From: Halanaerobiales bacterium
Lineage (GTDB): Bacteria > Bacillota > Halanaerobiia > Halanaerobiales > DTU029
Assembly (NCBI GenBank): GCA_025451675.1
Contig: JANWJZ010000086.1
Location: forward strand, 1 to 35,221
Direction of reading: 5' to 3'
Length of the DNA stretch: 35,221 nucleotides
Each line of letters opens with the position of its first letter. The stretch's first letter is position 1. Below, one piece after another: positions 28,190 to 32,680 of this stretch. The position numbers were made by a program, and so were the translations under genes. The notes beneath the pieces are model-generated. The model worked only from the letters and a program-made list of their open reading frames with translations, was not told where the DNA came from and did no database searches.

Positions 28190-28218
28190 TTGACAGAATG
28201 GAAAAAAAGTGCTATTAT
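28190..28218 (+). promoter_or_regulatory. Consensus-like promoter of the iron operon
   Basis: TTGACA (28190-28195), 17-bp spacer, TATTAT (28213-28218). Same -35, spacing and -10 as the efflux promoter, about 130 bp upstream of the first gene. Confidence 0.8.
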
Positions 28219-28230
28219 GATTAATGGAAA

Positions 28231-28245
28231 TGAAAGTCATTTTCA
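28231..28245 (+). promoter_or_regulatory. Fur-box-like site 1
   Basis: TGAAAGTCATTTTCA is a 7-1-7 inverted repeat with one arm mismatch, related to the Fur consensus TGATAATnATTATCA. It lies just downstream of the -10, over the expected transcription start, a typical place for iron-dependent repression. Confidence 0.65.
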
Positions 28246-28261
28246 TTTAAAACAAATTGAA

Positions 28262-28284
28262 TAAAGAACCGGTTCTTTTTTTAT
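28262..28284 (+). promoter_or_regulatory. Leader hairpin, possible attenuator
   Basis: AAAGAACCGGTTCTTT (28263-28278) is a perfect 16-bp palindrome followed by a T-run (TTTTATTTTT) inside the 5' leader of the iron operon. It could fold into a weak terminator or be a protein site. The tight loop makes the RNA hairpin only moderately convincing. Confidence 0.4.
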
Positions 28285-28297
28285 TTTTAGGGTTTAT

Positions 28298-28312
28298 TGA
28301 GAATCATTATCA
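28298..28312 (+). promoter_or_regulatory. Fur-box-like site 2
   Basis: TGAGAATCATTATCA differs from the 7-1-7 Fur consensus (TGATAATnATTATCA) at one position, and the flanks extend the palindrome (ATTGA...TCAAT). It lies about 38 bp before the first start codon of the feo cluster. Confidence 0.75.
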
Positions 28313-28349
28313 ATTGTGAAAAATTGCTCGAGAAAATGAGGGATGTACA

Positions 28350-28904
28350 GTGAATCGTGCAATTGCTAAAACGGTACGAAAATTTGAAGTTCTTGCTTCT
28401 AAAATCCTGCCCCTGTCCCGTATTTATATGTATCCATATCAACATATCGTACAGAGGGAAATAGAACTGGCAGACGTAGAGCCTGGAGCACAGGTATTGC
28501 AGATAGGTGCAGGTTCTGTACCATATACTGCCCTGTACCTGGCCGGGATGGGAGATTTTTATGTCACAGCCCTGGATATAGATCCTGTCGCTGTAAAATG
28601 TGCTGAAGGGTGGGTACAGAGGATGGGGTATTCTGACAGGGTAAGAGTAATGTACACTGGCGGTAATGATTATTCACTGGAAGATATCGCAGCGGCCTTT
28701 ATTGCCCTGCAGGTGGAACCGAAGGAAGAGGTTATGGATTATTTGATGGACCAGGGCCAGCAGGGGTTGAAGATAATCGTCAGGGAACCCAGCGAGCGCT
28801 ATGCCTCCCAGTATGATCCCATACCAGATAAATGGGTGCCGGTTTCCCGGATATACCAGGGCATGTCTACCTTCACTTATTCCAATCTATATATAAAAGC
28901 CTGA
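28350..28904 (+). CDS. Nicotianamine synthase-like / SAM-binding protein (NAS-like 1)
   Basis: A 184-residue protein with a Rossmann-type SAM site: VLQIGAGSVPYTALYLA followed by ALDIDPVAVKCAEGWV. The G-x-G-x-x-P-x-T-A-x-x-LA pattern, with Pro and Thr after the glycine loop, is that of nicotianamine synthases and CntL-like enzymes, not of ordinary methyltransferases. Those enzymes transfer aminobutanoyl units from SAM to make metal ligands. A paralogue lies in the same operon (30234-30821). It is first behind the Fur-type sites. GTG start at 28350 with GAGGGAT upstream. The later region (AAFIALQVEPKEEVMDYL, IIVREPSERYASQYDPIPD) is divergent and the protein is shorter than plant NAS, so a different SAM-dependent reaction is possible. 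Confidence 0.6.
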   Translation: MNRAIAKTVRKFEVLASKILPLSRIYMYPYQHIVQREIELADVEPGAQVLQIGAGSVPYTALYLAGMGDFYVTALDIDPVAVKCAEGWVQRMGYSDRVRVMYTGGNDYSLEDIAAAFIALQVEPKEEVMDYLMDQGQQGLKIIVREPSERYASQYDPIPDKWVPVSRIYQGMSTFTYSNLYIKA

Positions 28905-28962
28905 GCTATTCCAGGAAGGTTGTGCAAAGAACTAACTAAAGCTGGCCGGGGAGATGAAGAGA

Positions 28963-29955
28963 ATGAAAAGAGATAGGAAAACACTCCTGTCATTATTCCT
29001 GATACTCATATGTGTTATCCTGTTTTTTTATAAGTTCAATATAAGGGAAATCATAGCTGTGATTAATTTAATGCCTGTACATGTCATCCTGTCAGTACTT
29101 TTGTTACATATAATCACATTAGTACTGGGGGCTTTTAAATGGTATTTGATGCTGGCAGGTATTGGTCAGCGTAATAAAATGGGTCTTATATTTAATATTC
29201 ATATATCAACAATGTATTTTGATAATATTACACCCGGTGCAAAGATGGGAGGAGAGGGGGTCCGCCTATATTTGACGCGGAGATTACTGGATATAGATTA
29301 TGCCAGTGTAACCGGGCTTATTGGCCTGGATAAAGTTACAACCATGGTCCCTTTCATACTCATGTGCATAATGGCCTTAGTCGGGCAGTGGAGCTATTTT
29401 TATAAAAGTTCTCTGGGTAGATGGATTTTCATTGTCCTGCTTTTTTTAACATTTATCATACTTATAGCTATTGTGGCCATGCTGAATTTGGGGCGGAAGG
29501 GAAATAACATTAATAACAGTAAACCGTCAAGGGTAAAATCATTTCTGGCCAATGCGGGCCATGTATTCCGGATGCTTTTTACCAGTAAACGGGAGGCCTT
29601 TCTCTTATTCCTTCTTTCGGCCATTATCTGGTCCAGTTATCTTTTAAAGATGTATATACTGGCCCTGGCTATAGGTGTCAATATCCCCTTTCACACCTTA
29701 TCATCAGCCAGTATACTGGCCTATCTGGCTGGTATGTTACCCTTGACTCCTGGAGGATTGGGTTTTTTTGATGGTACCATCGGTGGCATTTTACTCCTAT
29801 TTAATGTCGATGAACTGGCCATAGGTACCCTGGTTTTATTGTATCGCCTTACTACATATTTCTTTACATTGTTGCTTGGCGGAATTTCCTCAATAATTCT
29901 TTTTAATAAAGTGAATGAGAAAAAAATTATCGATAAAGGAGGATATAAATGTTGA
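28963..29955 (+). CDS. UPF0104 / LPG-synthase-TM flippase-like membrane protein
   Basis: An approximately 330-residue protein with about eight membrane helices. Family signatures are ITPGAKMGGEGVRLYLTRRLL (the conserved 'PG-x-x-GE-x-R' loop) and LAGMLPLTPGGLGFFDGTIGG near the C-terminus. This family (AglD/MprF N-terminal flippase-like, TIGR00374) is linked to movement or synthesis of lipids and lipid-linked compounds; no catalytic MprF domain is attached. Its position between a NAS-like gene and feoA is unusual. It could move a metal ligand or lipid, but this is inference. ATG 28963 is at proper distance from GGGGAG (28948-28953); ATG 28954 is an alternative. The 3' end overlaps feoA by 7 bp. 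Confidence 0.8.
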   Translation: MKRDRKTLLSLFLILICVILFFYKFNIREIIAVINLMPVHVILSVLLLHIITLVLGAFKWYLMLAGIGQRNKMGLIFNIHISTMYFDNITPGAKMGGEGVRLYLTRRLLDIDYASVTGLIGLDKVTTMVPFILMCIMALVGQWSYFYKSSLGRWIFIVLLFLTFIILIAIVAMLNLGRKGNNINNSKPSRVKSFLANAGHVFRMLFTSKREAFLLFLLSAIIWSSYLLKMYILALAIGVNIPFHTLSSASILAYLAGMLPLTPGGLGFFDGTIGGILLLFNVDELAIGTLVLLYRLTTYFFTLLLGGISSIILFNKVNEKKIIDKGGYKC

Positions 29956-30233
29956 ATAAATGCCTGGATCCACACTGCAAACAAATTAAAAATGAACAAA
30001 AACCTCTGGCCTTTTTAAGCCCCGGACAGAGAGGTAAATTGGTTCAAATAGATGGTGGCCAGAAGATGAGAAAGCGTCTGGAGGCATTGGGAATCAGGCC
30101 CGGGAAAGAGGTATGTATGAAGAGTGCATTTTTTACCAGGGGACCTGTCGTGGTGAGCCTGGACGGACGCCTGATTGCAATAGGCCGGGGGCAGGCCCAG
30201 AAAATATATGTGGAAAAGGTAAGGGAAGATTAG
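29949..30233 (+). CDS. feoA: FeoA-family ferrous iron transport protein
   Basis: A 94-residue protein whose residues 20-94 form the SH3-like FeoA domain: FLSPGQRGKLVQIDGG, RKRLEALGIRPGKEV, and GPVVVSLDGRLIAIGRGQAQKIYV. FeoA assists the FeoB permease in the cytoplasm. The N-terminal 19 residues form an extension with two cysteines (C5 and C10) that is not part of the usual domain. AAGGAGGATATAA precedes ATG 29949, which overlaps the end of the flippase-like gene. The next gene begins directly after its stop codon (TAG ATG). Confidence 0.92.
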   Translation: MLNKCLDPHCKQIKNEQKPLAFLSPGQRGKLVQIDGGQKMRKRLEALGIRPGKEVCMKSAFFTRGPVVVSLDGRLIAIGRGQAQKIYVEKVRED

Positions 30234-30821
30234 ATGGTCGGTATCATATATGATTATTTTTTCAAAATAGTTATCCTTCTGGAAGATTTGTGCTGCAGGT
30301 ATATTGGTTTTGGGAAACTGTATCACCGTCTATTTTATCAGGGGATGATAGAGAGAGAAGTTGAATTGGCAGGCCTGAAACCTGGAGAACGGGTATTGCA
30401 CATAGGAGGGGGTTGTTTCCCCTTTACAGCTATATATCTTGCGTTGAAGGGGTACAAAGTACAGGTAATAGATATGGAGGCAAAGGCGGTAGAAAAGGCA
30501 AAAGCAGTAATAGAGAAATGGGGCCTGAAGGATTATATTGAGGTCCTTGAAGCCAACGGCCTGGATGTATCCGGTGAGGGTTTTGATGTAGTATGGATTT
30601 CCCTCCATGTACATCCAAAAGAAGAGATCATTAAAAAACTCCTGTCTACTTTACCCTCATCAGGGAGGATAATCTACCGGAACCCCAGAGGGGTTTTACG
30701 CCGCTTTTATCCGGTGGTGAAACCGGAACAGATTTTGAAAAAAGGGGATTATCACCTGGCTGATCAAATTATACAGAAAGAGTCTATAGTAATTTATAAT
30801 CAGGGTGGAGTGGTAGCATGA
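30234..30821 (+). CDS. Nicotianamine synthase-like protein (NAS-like 2)
   Basis: A 195-residue paralogue of the first gene of the operon. The core GERVLHIGGGCFPFTAIYLA, then VQVIDMEAKAVEKAK, FDVVWISLHVHPKEEIIKKLL and IIYRNPRGVLRRFYPVV lines up motif by motif with nicotianamine synthases: SAM loop with Pro-x-Thr, acidic D-x-E after strand 2, a late RxxxGxxxxxYP element. The match is closer than for NAS-like 1 and resembles the short archaeal form in size. NAS-type enzymes condense aminobutanoyl groups from SAM into metal-chelating opine precursors. Its ATG follows the feoA stop with no gap, and its end overlaps feoB by 4 bp (ATGA), so it is made in step with the iron permease. No opine dehydrogenase gene is present. 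Confidence 0.65.
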   Translation: MVGIIYDYFFKIVILLEDLCCRYIGFGKLYHRLFYQGMIEREVELAGLKPGERVLHIGGGCFPFTAIYLALKGYKVQVIDMEAKAVEKAKAVIEKWGLKDYIEVLEANGLDVSGEGFDVVWISLHVHPKEEIIKKLLSTLPSSGRIIYRNPRGVLRRFYPVVKPEQILKKGDYHLADQIIQKESIVIYNQGGVVA

Positions 30822-32524
30822 AAGTATTGTTGATGGGCAACCCCAATGTTGGTAAAAGTGTCTTATTTTCTGAACTGACCGGAATAACAGCCATGTCGGC
30901 CAATTATCCCGGGACTACAGTGAGCTACAGCCAGGGGCTTTTTGAAATAGACGGCCTGAAGATTTCCCTGGTGGATGTACCGGGAACCTATGCACTGGAT
31001 ATGGGGACAGAGGCTGAGGTGATTGCCAATGAATTCCTGGATAAAGGGGCTGATGCAATTGTAATCGTCCTGGATGCCACCAACCTGGAGAGGAACCTAT
31101 ATCTGGCCTTACAGGTACTGGATAGGGGTTTCCCCACTGTAGTGGCCCTGAACCTGATGGATGTAGCGAGGAACAGAGGTATTAAAATCGATATCAAGAC
31201 TTTAGGGGAAAAGCTGGGTGTCCCTGTTGTAGCGACTACAGCCGTAAAGGGCCAGGGAATAGAGGACCTGAAGAAAACCCTGCTGACTGTCCTGGAACAG
31301 AAACGTGTTCCAGGTATAAGATGGGGGAAACAGGATTACTGGAAGGCTGCAGAGAGAATTGCCAGAAAGACGCAGAGTTTTGAACAGGGTAAGAGGACCC
31401 TTGGGGATAGACTGGATGAAAAGATACTGCAACCTTTATCAGGTAGCCTTATTGCCATAGCAGTGACCCTTTTATCTTTTGCCGGTATAGTGGGTGTGGG
31501 GATGGGGGTCAGGAATTTTATACTGCGACCCATCTTTGATAATTTTATAGAACCTGTTATTAGGACTATAGTCATCAGTATAGTTCCTGCCGGGGTTTTC
31601 CAGAATATCCTTATAGGGGATTATGGGTTTTTGATAAAGACCATTGAATGGCCCTTGACCCTGATGTTTCCCTACGTGGTCTCCTTTTATATAGTCCTGG
31701 CCTTTCTTGAAGACAGCGGTTATATGCCCCGCCTGGCAGCCCTTTTAGATTCAGTCTTCAAAAAGATTGGCTTACAGGGAACGGCAATGATCCCATTCAT
31801 ACTGGGTTACGGTTGTGCCATACCTGCTATACTGGCTACCCGTTCTTTAAATGACAGGCGGGAGCGTAAGATGGTGTCTACCCTTATTGCCCTTGGGGTA
31901 CCCTGTATTTCCCAGACCGGTGCTTTTATATCTTTATTGGGAGCCAGGTCATTTTTATTGGTAATTGCATTATATCTTATCTCATTAACAGCGGTATTCA
32001 TAACAGGGCGGATTTTGCTGCGCCTAAATCCGGAACCGCCTGAACCGTTGGCCATGGAACTGCCACCACTGCTATGGCCAGAGATGAGAACGGTCAGCAG
32101 AAGGACCTGGCACCGCCTGAAGGGTACCATTACTGACGCTTTTATACCATTGACAATAGTAGTGGCCGTAACATCCATCCTGTATGAAACAGGTGGTTTA
32201 CATTATATAGGGAATCTCCTCAGCCCGCTGGTAGTAAAATGGCTGGGTTTACCGGCGGAAGCCAGTGTCGGTCTGATTGCGGGAATTGTAAGACGGGAAC
32301 TGGCGGTACTTCCGCTGCTGGAAATGAATCTGACCACTGCTCAATTATTTGTGGGGGCAGTAGTTGCCCTCTTTTACCTGCCCTGTGCAGCAGTCTTTGG
32401 TGTGCTGGCTACTGAATTCAGTGTCAAAGAAGCTGCAGGTGTAGGACTGATAACCATATTCCTGGCCTTCACCATAGGCGGCCTGTTTAATCACCTCTTC
32501 AAATTCATAGCCTTCATATTTTAA
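30818..32524 (+). CDS. feoB: FeoB-family ferrous iron permease (short variant)
   Basis: Imports Fe2+ across the inner membrane. The N-terminal G domain has G1 GNPNVGKS (7-14), the switch Thr in PGTTVSY, G3 DVPGTY (53-58) and G4 NLMD (112-115). A short helical linker leads to a membrane domain from about 205 with FLEDSGYMPRLA, GYGCAIPAILATRSL and, near the end, FYLPCAAVFGVLATE. At 568 residues it is about 100-200 shorter than common FeoBs. Where they have a Cys-(S/G)-A-R-L-P gate motif, this protein reads VPCISQTGAF. FeoA is separate, encoded one gene upstream. A variant metal preference is possible. The start overlaps the NAS-like gene (ATGA). Confidence 0.9.
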   Translation: MKVLLMGNPNVGKSVLFSELTGITAMSANYPGTTVSYSQGLFEIDGLKISLVDVPGTYALDMGTEAEVIANEFLDKGADAIVIVLDATNLERNLYLALQVLDRGFPTVVALNLMDVARNRGIKIDIKTLGEKLGVPVVATTAVKGQGIEDLKKTLLTVLEQKRVPGIRWGKQDYWKAAERIARKTQSFEQGKRTLGDRLDEKILQPLSGSLIAIAVTLLSFAGIVGVGMGVRNFILRPIFDNFIEPVIRTIVISIVPAGVFQNILIGDYGFLIKTIEWPLTLMFPYVVSFYIVLAFLEDSGYMPRLAALLDSVFKKIGLQGTAMIPFILGYGCAIPAILATRSLNDRRERKMVSTLIALGVPCISQTGAFISLLGARSFLLVIALYLISLTAVFITGRILLRLNPEPPEPLAMELPPLLWPEMRTVSRRTWHRLKGTITDAFIPLTIVVAVTSILYETGGLHYIGNLLSPLVVKWLGLPAEASVGLIAGIVRRELAVLPLLEMNLTTAQLFVGAVVALFYLPCAAVFGVLATEFSVKEAAGVGLITIFLAFTIGGLFNHLFKFIAFIF

Positions 32525-32527
32525 CTA

Positions 32528-32564
32528 AACGACACAGGGGGACGGTTCTCCTGTGTCGTTTTCT
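32528..32564 (+). repeat. REP-like palindromic element, copy 2, possible feoB terminator
   Basis: AACGACACAGG (32528-32538) pairs with CCTGTGTCGTT (32550-32560), followed by TTC, four bases after the feoB stop. The centre (GGGACGGTTCT) is shared with the copy at 27327 in the opposite orientation. It may have been captured as the operon's terminator. Confidence 0.8.
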
Positions 32565-32570
32565 TACGAA

Positions 32571-32588
32571 ACTACCTGATCAGGTAGT
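32571..32588. repeat. ACTACCT/AGGTAGT palindrome 1
   Basis: ACTACCTGATCAGGTAGT is a perfect 18-bp palindrome. A near copy starts 64 bp further on (32635) and a third variant forms a terminator at 33000. It lies upstream of the small membrane protein gene and is a candidate operator. Confidence 0.6.
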
Positions 32589-32634
32589 GTAGCTACAGTC
32601 AATAATTGATGATTAAGAGATAATTTTTTCCAAA

Positions 32635-32652
32635 ACTACCTGATTAGGTAGT
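32635..32652. promoter_or_regulatory. ACTACCT/AGGTAGT palindrome 2, operator-like
   Basis: ACTACCTGATTAGGTAGT, 17 of 18 bases identical to palindrome 1. Its last base is the first base of a possible -35 (TGTACA, 32652-32657) with TATATT 17 bp beyond (32675-32680), so a protein bound here would touch RNA polymerase. Confidence 0.5.
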
Positions 32653-32680
32653 GTACATTGATGGAATAATGTGGTATATT
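32652..32680 (+). promoter_or_regulatory. Possible promoter for the small membrane protein
   Basis: TGTACA (32652-32657), 17-bp spacer, TATATT (32675-32680). The -35 is weak (4 of 6). The start codon is 68 bp downstream. Confidence 0.4.

Follow-up and report, generated by a model that had tools for sequence, protein, structure and literature searches.

Here, we describe a five-gene operon on a contig of a Halanaerobiales bacterium (35,221 nucleotides, hereafter the window), in which the genes for FeoA and FeoB, of the ferrous iron transport system, are combined with genes for two short proteins related to nicotianamine synthase (NAS), named g1 and g4, and for a flippase-like membrane protein of the UPF0104/MprF type, named FLIP. 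We propose, with a probability of roughly 0.4, that the two NAS-like enzymes build a lipid-anchored chelator, that FLIP flips it across the membrane, and that the Fe2+ it binds is passed to FeoB, the whole being under Fur control. A prediction made earlier from the DNA alone (the original prediction) had placed a promoter, two Fur-box-like palindromes and five genes of the same strand in the segment 28190-32560, and all of them were located there. The features of the operon are the following.

28190..28218, + strand: sigma-70-type promoter TTGACA-17-TATTAT with an extended -10 TG, 11/12 consensus matches, read directly
28231..28245: Fur-box-like palindrome TGAAAGTCATTTTCA, lying shortly after the predicted start, 3 mismatches to TGATAATNATTATCA
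28298..28312: Fur-box-like palindrome TGAGAATCATTATCA, 1 mismatch to the Fur 7-1-7 consensus TGATAATNATTATCA
28350..28904, + strand: g1, predicted short NAS-like aminocarboxypropyltransferase (type 1), GTG start, 184 aa, catalytic E13 and Y30
28954..29955, + strand: FLIP, flippase-like membrane protein of UPF0104 / TIGR00374, related to the flippase domain of MprF, 333 aa
29949..30233, + strand: FeoA, 94 aa, PF04023 71 bits
30234..30821, + strand: g4, predicted short NAS-like aminocarboxypropyltransferase (type 2), 195 aa, catalytic E17 and Y35
30818..32524, + strand: FeoB ferrous iron transporter, 568 aa, TIGR00437 359 bits
32530..32562, + strand: terminator-like hairpin CGACACAGG...CCTGTGTCG followed by a T run, read directly, partly in the site listing (32537-32552)

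The five open reading frames (ORFs) thus follow each other in the order g1, FLIP, FeoA, g4 and FeoB. The first two are separated by a gap of 49 nt, and from the second gene on every junction overlaps or abuts, as had been claimed (a 7-nt overlap, an abutting pair and a 4-nt ATGA overlap).

Short proteins of the nicotianamine synthase type

The proteins g1 and g4 are paralogues, with an identity of 35% across 142 residues, and their kinship to NAS, which the original prediction had read from sequence motifs, is borne out by profiles and by predicted structures. The Pfam NAS family (PF03059, cut-off 27.1 bits) matches g4 with 37.4 bits; g1 reaches 21.0, under the cut-off, yet NAS is its top Pfam match. 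In sequence searches of the PDB, MtNAS (thermonicotianamine; PDB 3FPE, 3FPF and 3O31) came first for both proteins, with single sequences and with profiles, and CntL came second with profiles. The g4 profile matched MtNAS at 1e-20, CntL at 9e-14 and the best methyltransferase at 7e-8, and the corresponding values for the g1 profile are 1.5e-15, 1.3e-13 and 3e-5, respectively. AlphaFold models of the two proteins have predicted local distance difference test (pLDDT) values of 89.9 and 91.7. MtNAS is the first Foldseek match for both models, while the top query-normalised template modelling (TM) score of the g1 model (0.82-0.83) is to CntL.

The residues MtNAS Glu81 and Tyr107 deprotonate the acceptor amine (PMC10491745), and the residues matching them in AtNAS1 are essential (PMC10248798). 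In the g4 profile, the invariant E17 is aligned with position 84 of CntL, where the mutant structure 7c9k (E84Q) has Q, and Tyr35 of g4 and Tyr30 of g1 are aligned with MtNAS Tyr107. The Glu is conserved in 133 of 134 aligned relatives (70/70 g1, 42/43 g4 and 21/21 proteins of a third, single-copy subfamily described below), and the Tyr in all 135 from the same three groups. The original prediction had named the opposite outcome, best matches to ordinary methyltransferases and no NAS residues, as one that would speak against it; MtNAS and CntL are the best matches, and both residues are present.

In common with MtNAS, g1 and g4 have a Rossmann core, the GxGxxPxT loop for S-adenosylmethionine (SAM) and the equivalents of Glu81 and Tyr107. 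However, MtNAS, about 265 residues long, has a complete helical domain at its N-terminus, which is absent from g1 and g4; in both predicted models, two helices, a hairpin of about 45 residues, precede the core, the profile matches span MtNAS from about residue 92 onward, and the genes stand in a feo operon. Given the conserved Glu and Tyr and the profile and fold matches, g1 and g4 would be short NAS-type enzymes that kept both catalytic residues and lost most of the N-terminal domain. This truncation would make the acceptor side different and perhaps accessible to a larger acceptor. What is known of the family makes aminocarboxypropyl transfer the probable reaction of both.

CntL and the opine metallophore systems (staphylopine, pseudopaline) share with the operon the position of the catalytic Glu84, the expected aminocarboxypropyl transfer and a regulation by metal starvation. 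However, the window's two NAS-like proteins reach 20.7 and 20.9 bits with the CntL equivalog NF033601, whose cut-off is 350, and the dehydrogenase, racemase, exporter and importer of the opine systems are missing from the operon. Among the window genes scanned there is no opine dehydrogenase and no dedicated importer or exporter, and the operon has no receptor and no ABC or outer-membrane importer, in agreement with the original prediction as to the dehydrogenase and the receptor; nor was an opine dehydrogenase, a receptor, or an ATP-binding cassette (ABC) or outer-membrane importer seen as a conserved member of related operons. A secreted opine metallophore was rejected for want of a dehydrogenase or importer.

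The other three proteins belong to known families. FLIP matches LPG_synthase_TM (PF03706) with 147 bits (cut-off 33.4) and TIGR00374 with 138 bits (cut-off 43.2), and so shares its membrane domain family with MprF and related flippases. MprF flips an aminoacylated phospholipid, whereas FLIP has no synthase domain and is partnered by a NAS-like enzyme, and its scores are far under the MprF and GlcN-PG flippase cut-offs. FeoA (cut-off 23 bits for PF04023) and FeoB (Pfam FeoB_N 174 bits; NCBIfam feoB TIGR00437 cut-off 315.65) are canonical; compared with the known Feo system of FeoA, FeoB and FeoC, the operon has additional enzyme and flippase genes.

Conservation, fusions and regulation of the module

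Within Halanaerobiia, the gene order g1-FLIP-g4-FeoA-FeoB is found again with minor changes. Of 398 Bacillota genomes sampled, about 41 have a related gene, and the majority of these genes adjoin FeoA, FeoB and FLIP. A second scan of contigs, with a closer g1 alignment derived from haloalkaliphiles as the query, gave 47 close loci, sharing the same gene set, in Bacillota, Desulfobacterota, Spirochaetota, Actinomycetota, Cloacimonadota, Sumerlaeota, Chloroflexota, Acetothermia and Mollicutes. Judged by record titles, all but two of these loci of the g1 set come from soda-lake metagenome-assembled genomes (MAGs; codes in PMC6146748 and PMC6704655) or from haloalkaliphilic isolates; part of this habitat bias is built in by the query. 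The presence of many phyla within one habitat suggests horizontal transfer of the module. Where 5 kb could be read on both sides (44 loci), FeoB was found at 35, FLIP at 35 and both at 31. The scan hits L185-L197 (L and G numbers are locus and genome labels) are weak, with none of FLIP, FeoA and FeoB next to them, and they were set aside.

The gene tree is divided into three subfamilies, g1, g4 and single-copy, with Shimodaira-Hasegawa-like approximate likelihood ratio (SH-aLRT) supports of 96, 91 and 87, respectively. The tree's separation of these three led us to drop the reading of the single-copy proteins as simply g1. Longer NAS-like genes of another Bacillota family (L122, L123) fall outside the short clades.

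Fusions tie the components of the module more closely. At 13 loci g4 is fused to the N-terminal side of FeoA, at one locus (L088) it is fused C-terminally to FLIP, and in a Spirochaetaceae MAG (L179) FLIP-g4-FeoA is a single protein of 597 residues; the FLIP and FeoA ends of the fusion proteins were confirmed by Pfam. Fusions of g1 were absent among the loci surveyed. The physical chain FLIP-g4-FeoA, with FeoB next to it, argues that the enzyme, the flippase and the transporter probably act together. The original prediction of a flippase-like partner is supported as to the partnership, by the fusions and by the conservation of the operon across phyla, while flipping itself is a predicted activity. 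Two further arrangements were seen. A NAS-like gene (210 aa) at L096:6466-10050 adjoins a metal ABC transporter of the Mn/Fe type (SloABC/MntABC-like), which suggests that it works with a different metal importer, and three Desulfonatronospira loci (L149, L156, L167) have two-gene g1-FLIP units with no FeoB within reach.

The leader of the operon suggests regulation by Fur. The promoter is the top scorer among 19 promoter-like sites in the stretch, and the palindrome at 28298-28312 is the sole match to TGATAATNATTATCA with 1 mismatch within the 35-kb window; an equally good Fur-like box is expected by chance in the 154-nt leader with p ~1e-4. A relative of the same genus (L033) has TGAAAATCATTTTCA as the counterpart of the box at 28231-28245. 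A perfect palindrome, AAAGAACCGGTTCTTT (28263-28278), sits between the two Fur-like boxes and is a possible second operator. Across the family, Fur-like boxes at p<=0.05 were found in 44 of 89 leaders before the module, some of them near-duplicates. Furthermore, a Fur gene lies directly upstream of g1 at L150, L160 and L164; it has the same place before g1-FLIP in Desulfobacterota, and at Desulfonatronovibrio loci related to the Desulfonatronospira units. The window's own genome has two Fur-family genes. The conserved leaders and the conservation of the operon across phyla support the original proposal that the module is co-regulated with FeoB, probably by a Fur-type repressor.

A membrane lipid as the putative acceptor

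In the single-copy branch, FLIP is often followed by the gene for a CDP-alcohol phosphatidyltransferase of the PssA (phosphatidylserine synthase) family. Such a gene follows the NAS-like gene and FLIP in 19 of the 398 Bacillota genomes, 18 by listed coordinates and G173 by its score among close kin. The operonic PssA proteins score about 90-138 against the TIGR00473 cut-off of 107; those of G415, G437, G335 and G332 are above it, and most are just below. In the whole sample, PssA is present in 145 genomes and Psd, the phosphatidylserine decarboxylase, in 152. Psd is found in 0/19 genomes with operonic PssA versus 122/126 other PssA genomes. PssA occurs without Psd in 23 Bacillota genomes, 21 of which carry the single-copy NAS-like gene; the remaining two, G118 and G237, have no NAS-like gene. 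PssA is present in all single-copy genomes (29/29, background 36%), and a Mollicutes MAG (L182) has the same pairing of PssA and NAS-like genes. This distribution indicates that phosphatidylserine in the operonic-PssA organisms is apparently not made for phosphatidylethanolamine, and that its enzyme travels with the NAS-like protein, FLIP and Feo. The genomes with g1 and g4 mostly have no PssA: it is lacking in 31 of 36 g4-bearing rows and present in 13 of 17 g4-less rows (Fisher 1.5e-5, uncorrected), a pattern that would fit a replacement of PssA by g4 but is not confirmed by the test with independent pairs given below.

In the mechanism that we propose, the operon, under Fur control, would make a membrane-anchored iron chelator. 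The two enzymes would transfer 3-amino-3-carboxypropyl groups from SAM onto the head group of a membrane lipid, which would become a nicotianamine-like metal-binding head with amino and carboxylate groups. Carried by FLIP into the outer leaflet of the cytoplasmic membrane, the lipid would bind Fe2+ and pass it to the adjacent FeoB/FeoA; with such a lipid-anchored hand-off, a soluble receptor or an opine importer would be unnecessary. In the single-copy branch, the acceptor would be phosphatidylserine from the neighbouring PssA, with an alpha-amino group like that of the amino acids on which CntL and MtNAS act. In the branches without PssA, the window included, a different lipid would receive its first unit from g4 and its second from g1. 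The lipid acceptor, the flipping and the Fe2+ hand-off are proposed from association. The wide occurrence of the module, the g4-FLIP and g4-FeoA fusions and the PssA of one branch speak for a product bound to lipid and against one that is secreted, and the place of FLIP in the MprF lipid-flippase superfamily, together with the PssA/Psd pattern, supports a lipid. The general form of the proposal, in which many phyla would use NAS-type enzymes and phosphatidylserine or another lipid to make a membrane-anchored, nicotianamine-like lipid, flipped by a dedicated UPF0104 protein, as the outer-leaflet Fe2+ ligand of FeoB, is slightly less probable. As for the metal-ligand system working in step with FeoB that had originally been suggested, the NAS kinship and the gene coupling support it, and its product, the flipping and the function stand as inferences.

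Mycobactin and other lipid-anchored siderophores are chelators kept at the membrane and are a functional parallel to the proposed lipid; the mycobactin type is made by unrelated non-ribosomal peptide synthetases and binds ferric rather than ferrous iron. In betaine-lipid synthesis, BtaA likewise transfers 3-amino-3-carboxypropyl from SAM onto a lipid, the acceptor being the hydroxyl of diacylglycerol. Unlike the window module, BtaA has no link to iron. It is apparently not homologous to NAS or CntL (PMC10491745).

Several observations weigh against the lipid-anchored chelator. The window's own genome has neither PssA nor Psd, so the acceptor must be another lipid, or the lipid idea fails here. 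Eight single-copy genomes retain Psd, and their PssA lies elsewhere. The joint state of PssA and Psd changes about 4-5 times on a weakly resolved gene tree, which leaves a corrected test powerless; the complementarity of g4 and PssA loses its significance when phylogenetically independent pairs are compared, and it does not extend to G315 and several MAGs. Lipid flipping is proven for some UPF0104 proteins, not all, and for FLIP it is predicted from the family. The N-terminal helix is mildly amphipathic, which is too weak as proof of membrane binding.

The main rival, which we regard as less probable, is a soluble metallophore: g1 and g4 would make a nicotianamine-like molecule from SAM and an amino acid, and FLIP would export it to keep extracellular Fe2+ soluble for FeoB. 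The catalytic Glu and Tyr are conserved, all characterised NAS relatives use free amino acids (PMC10491745), and a soluble chelator would help in the deeper soda-lake sediments, whose sulfur is mainly iron sulfide (PMC6704655). However, FLIP is in a lipid-flippase superfamily, the PssA link and the absence of Psd are left unexplained, and neither this operon nor, as a conserved member, any related one includes the dehydrogenase, receptor or importer named above.

It is improbable that the product stays in the cytosol, as plant nicotianamine, which functions inside cells (PMC10248798), and takes over the Fe2+ leaving FeoB, with a separate role for FLIP. The g4-FeoA fusions would place the enzyme at the cytosolic face of FeoB, but FLIP is linked to the module as often as FeoB (35/44 loci each), and two lineages have it fused to g4. 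Still less probable are ordinary SAM methyltransferases that would N-methylate a phospholipid head group, that of phosphatidylserine or one of its derivatives, and leave the movement of the methylated lipid to FLIP. The Rossmann SAM-binding core has weak matches to many methyltransferases, and this reading accounts for PssA and FLIP; it was put low on the profiles, where MtNAS and CntL lead by about six or more orders of magnitude, on the fold, with MtNAS as the top structural match, and on the invariant NAS-type Glu and Tyr. Least likely of all, the NAS-like proteins would be SAM sensors or scaffolds without catalytic activity that regulate FeoB. The fusions to FeoA speak for this, a FeoA homologue being required for FeoB pore assembly in V. 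cholerae (PMC8749426), but catalytic residues and a SAM loop conserved in three subfamilies and many phyla do not fit it.

Genomic surroundings and significance

Downstream of feoB, before an ORF of 60 aa, the palindrome ACTACCTGAT(C/T)AGGTAGTGTA occurs twice (32570-32660) as an operator-like repeat. Upstream of the operon, with other genes in between, one strand of the segment 19270-26390 encodes an HlyD-type fusion protein, an ABC ATPase, two MacB/FtsX permeases and two TolC-like OEP proteins, a set that would fit a diderm cell. These MacAB-TolC-like genes were considered as the exporter of the module and left out of it, since relatives give no evidence of linkage. The genome has two more FeoB-like genes, at C78:914 and C90:5834, with frames of 670 aa and 273 aa.

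No description of a module of feoB with NAS-like or UPF0104 genes was found in the open-access literature searched, a scope outside which most subscription papers lie. A survey of Feo evolution makes no mention of nicotianamine, methyltransferase or flippase genes (PMC8749426). A map of opine zincophores, which does not mention feo, uses the dehydrogenase as its handle (PMC7438024) and would miss a module that has none. The component families are known, and their combination appears undescribed.

Among the bacterial systems for Fe2+ uptake, Feo is the most widespread, and little is understood of the route by which Fe2+ reaches FeoB. With a conserved and often fused partner of enzyme and flippase, Feo would gain a defined step of ligand handling. 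If the proposal is true, NAS chemistry would extend from soluble metallophores, perhaps to membrane lipids, and the product would represent a new class of metal-binding lipids, and ferrous iron would be taken up in a new way, with the help of a lipid. It would also explain the purpose of PssA in Bacillota that have no phosphatidylserine decarboxylase, and the iron supply of anaerobes in alkaline, sulfidic soda-lake sediments.

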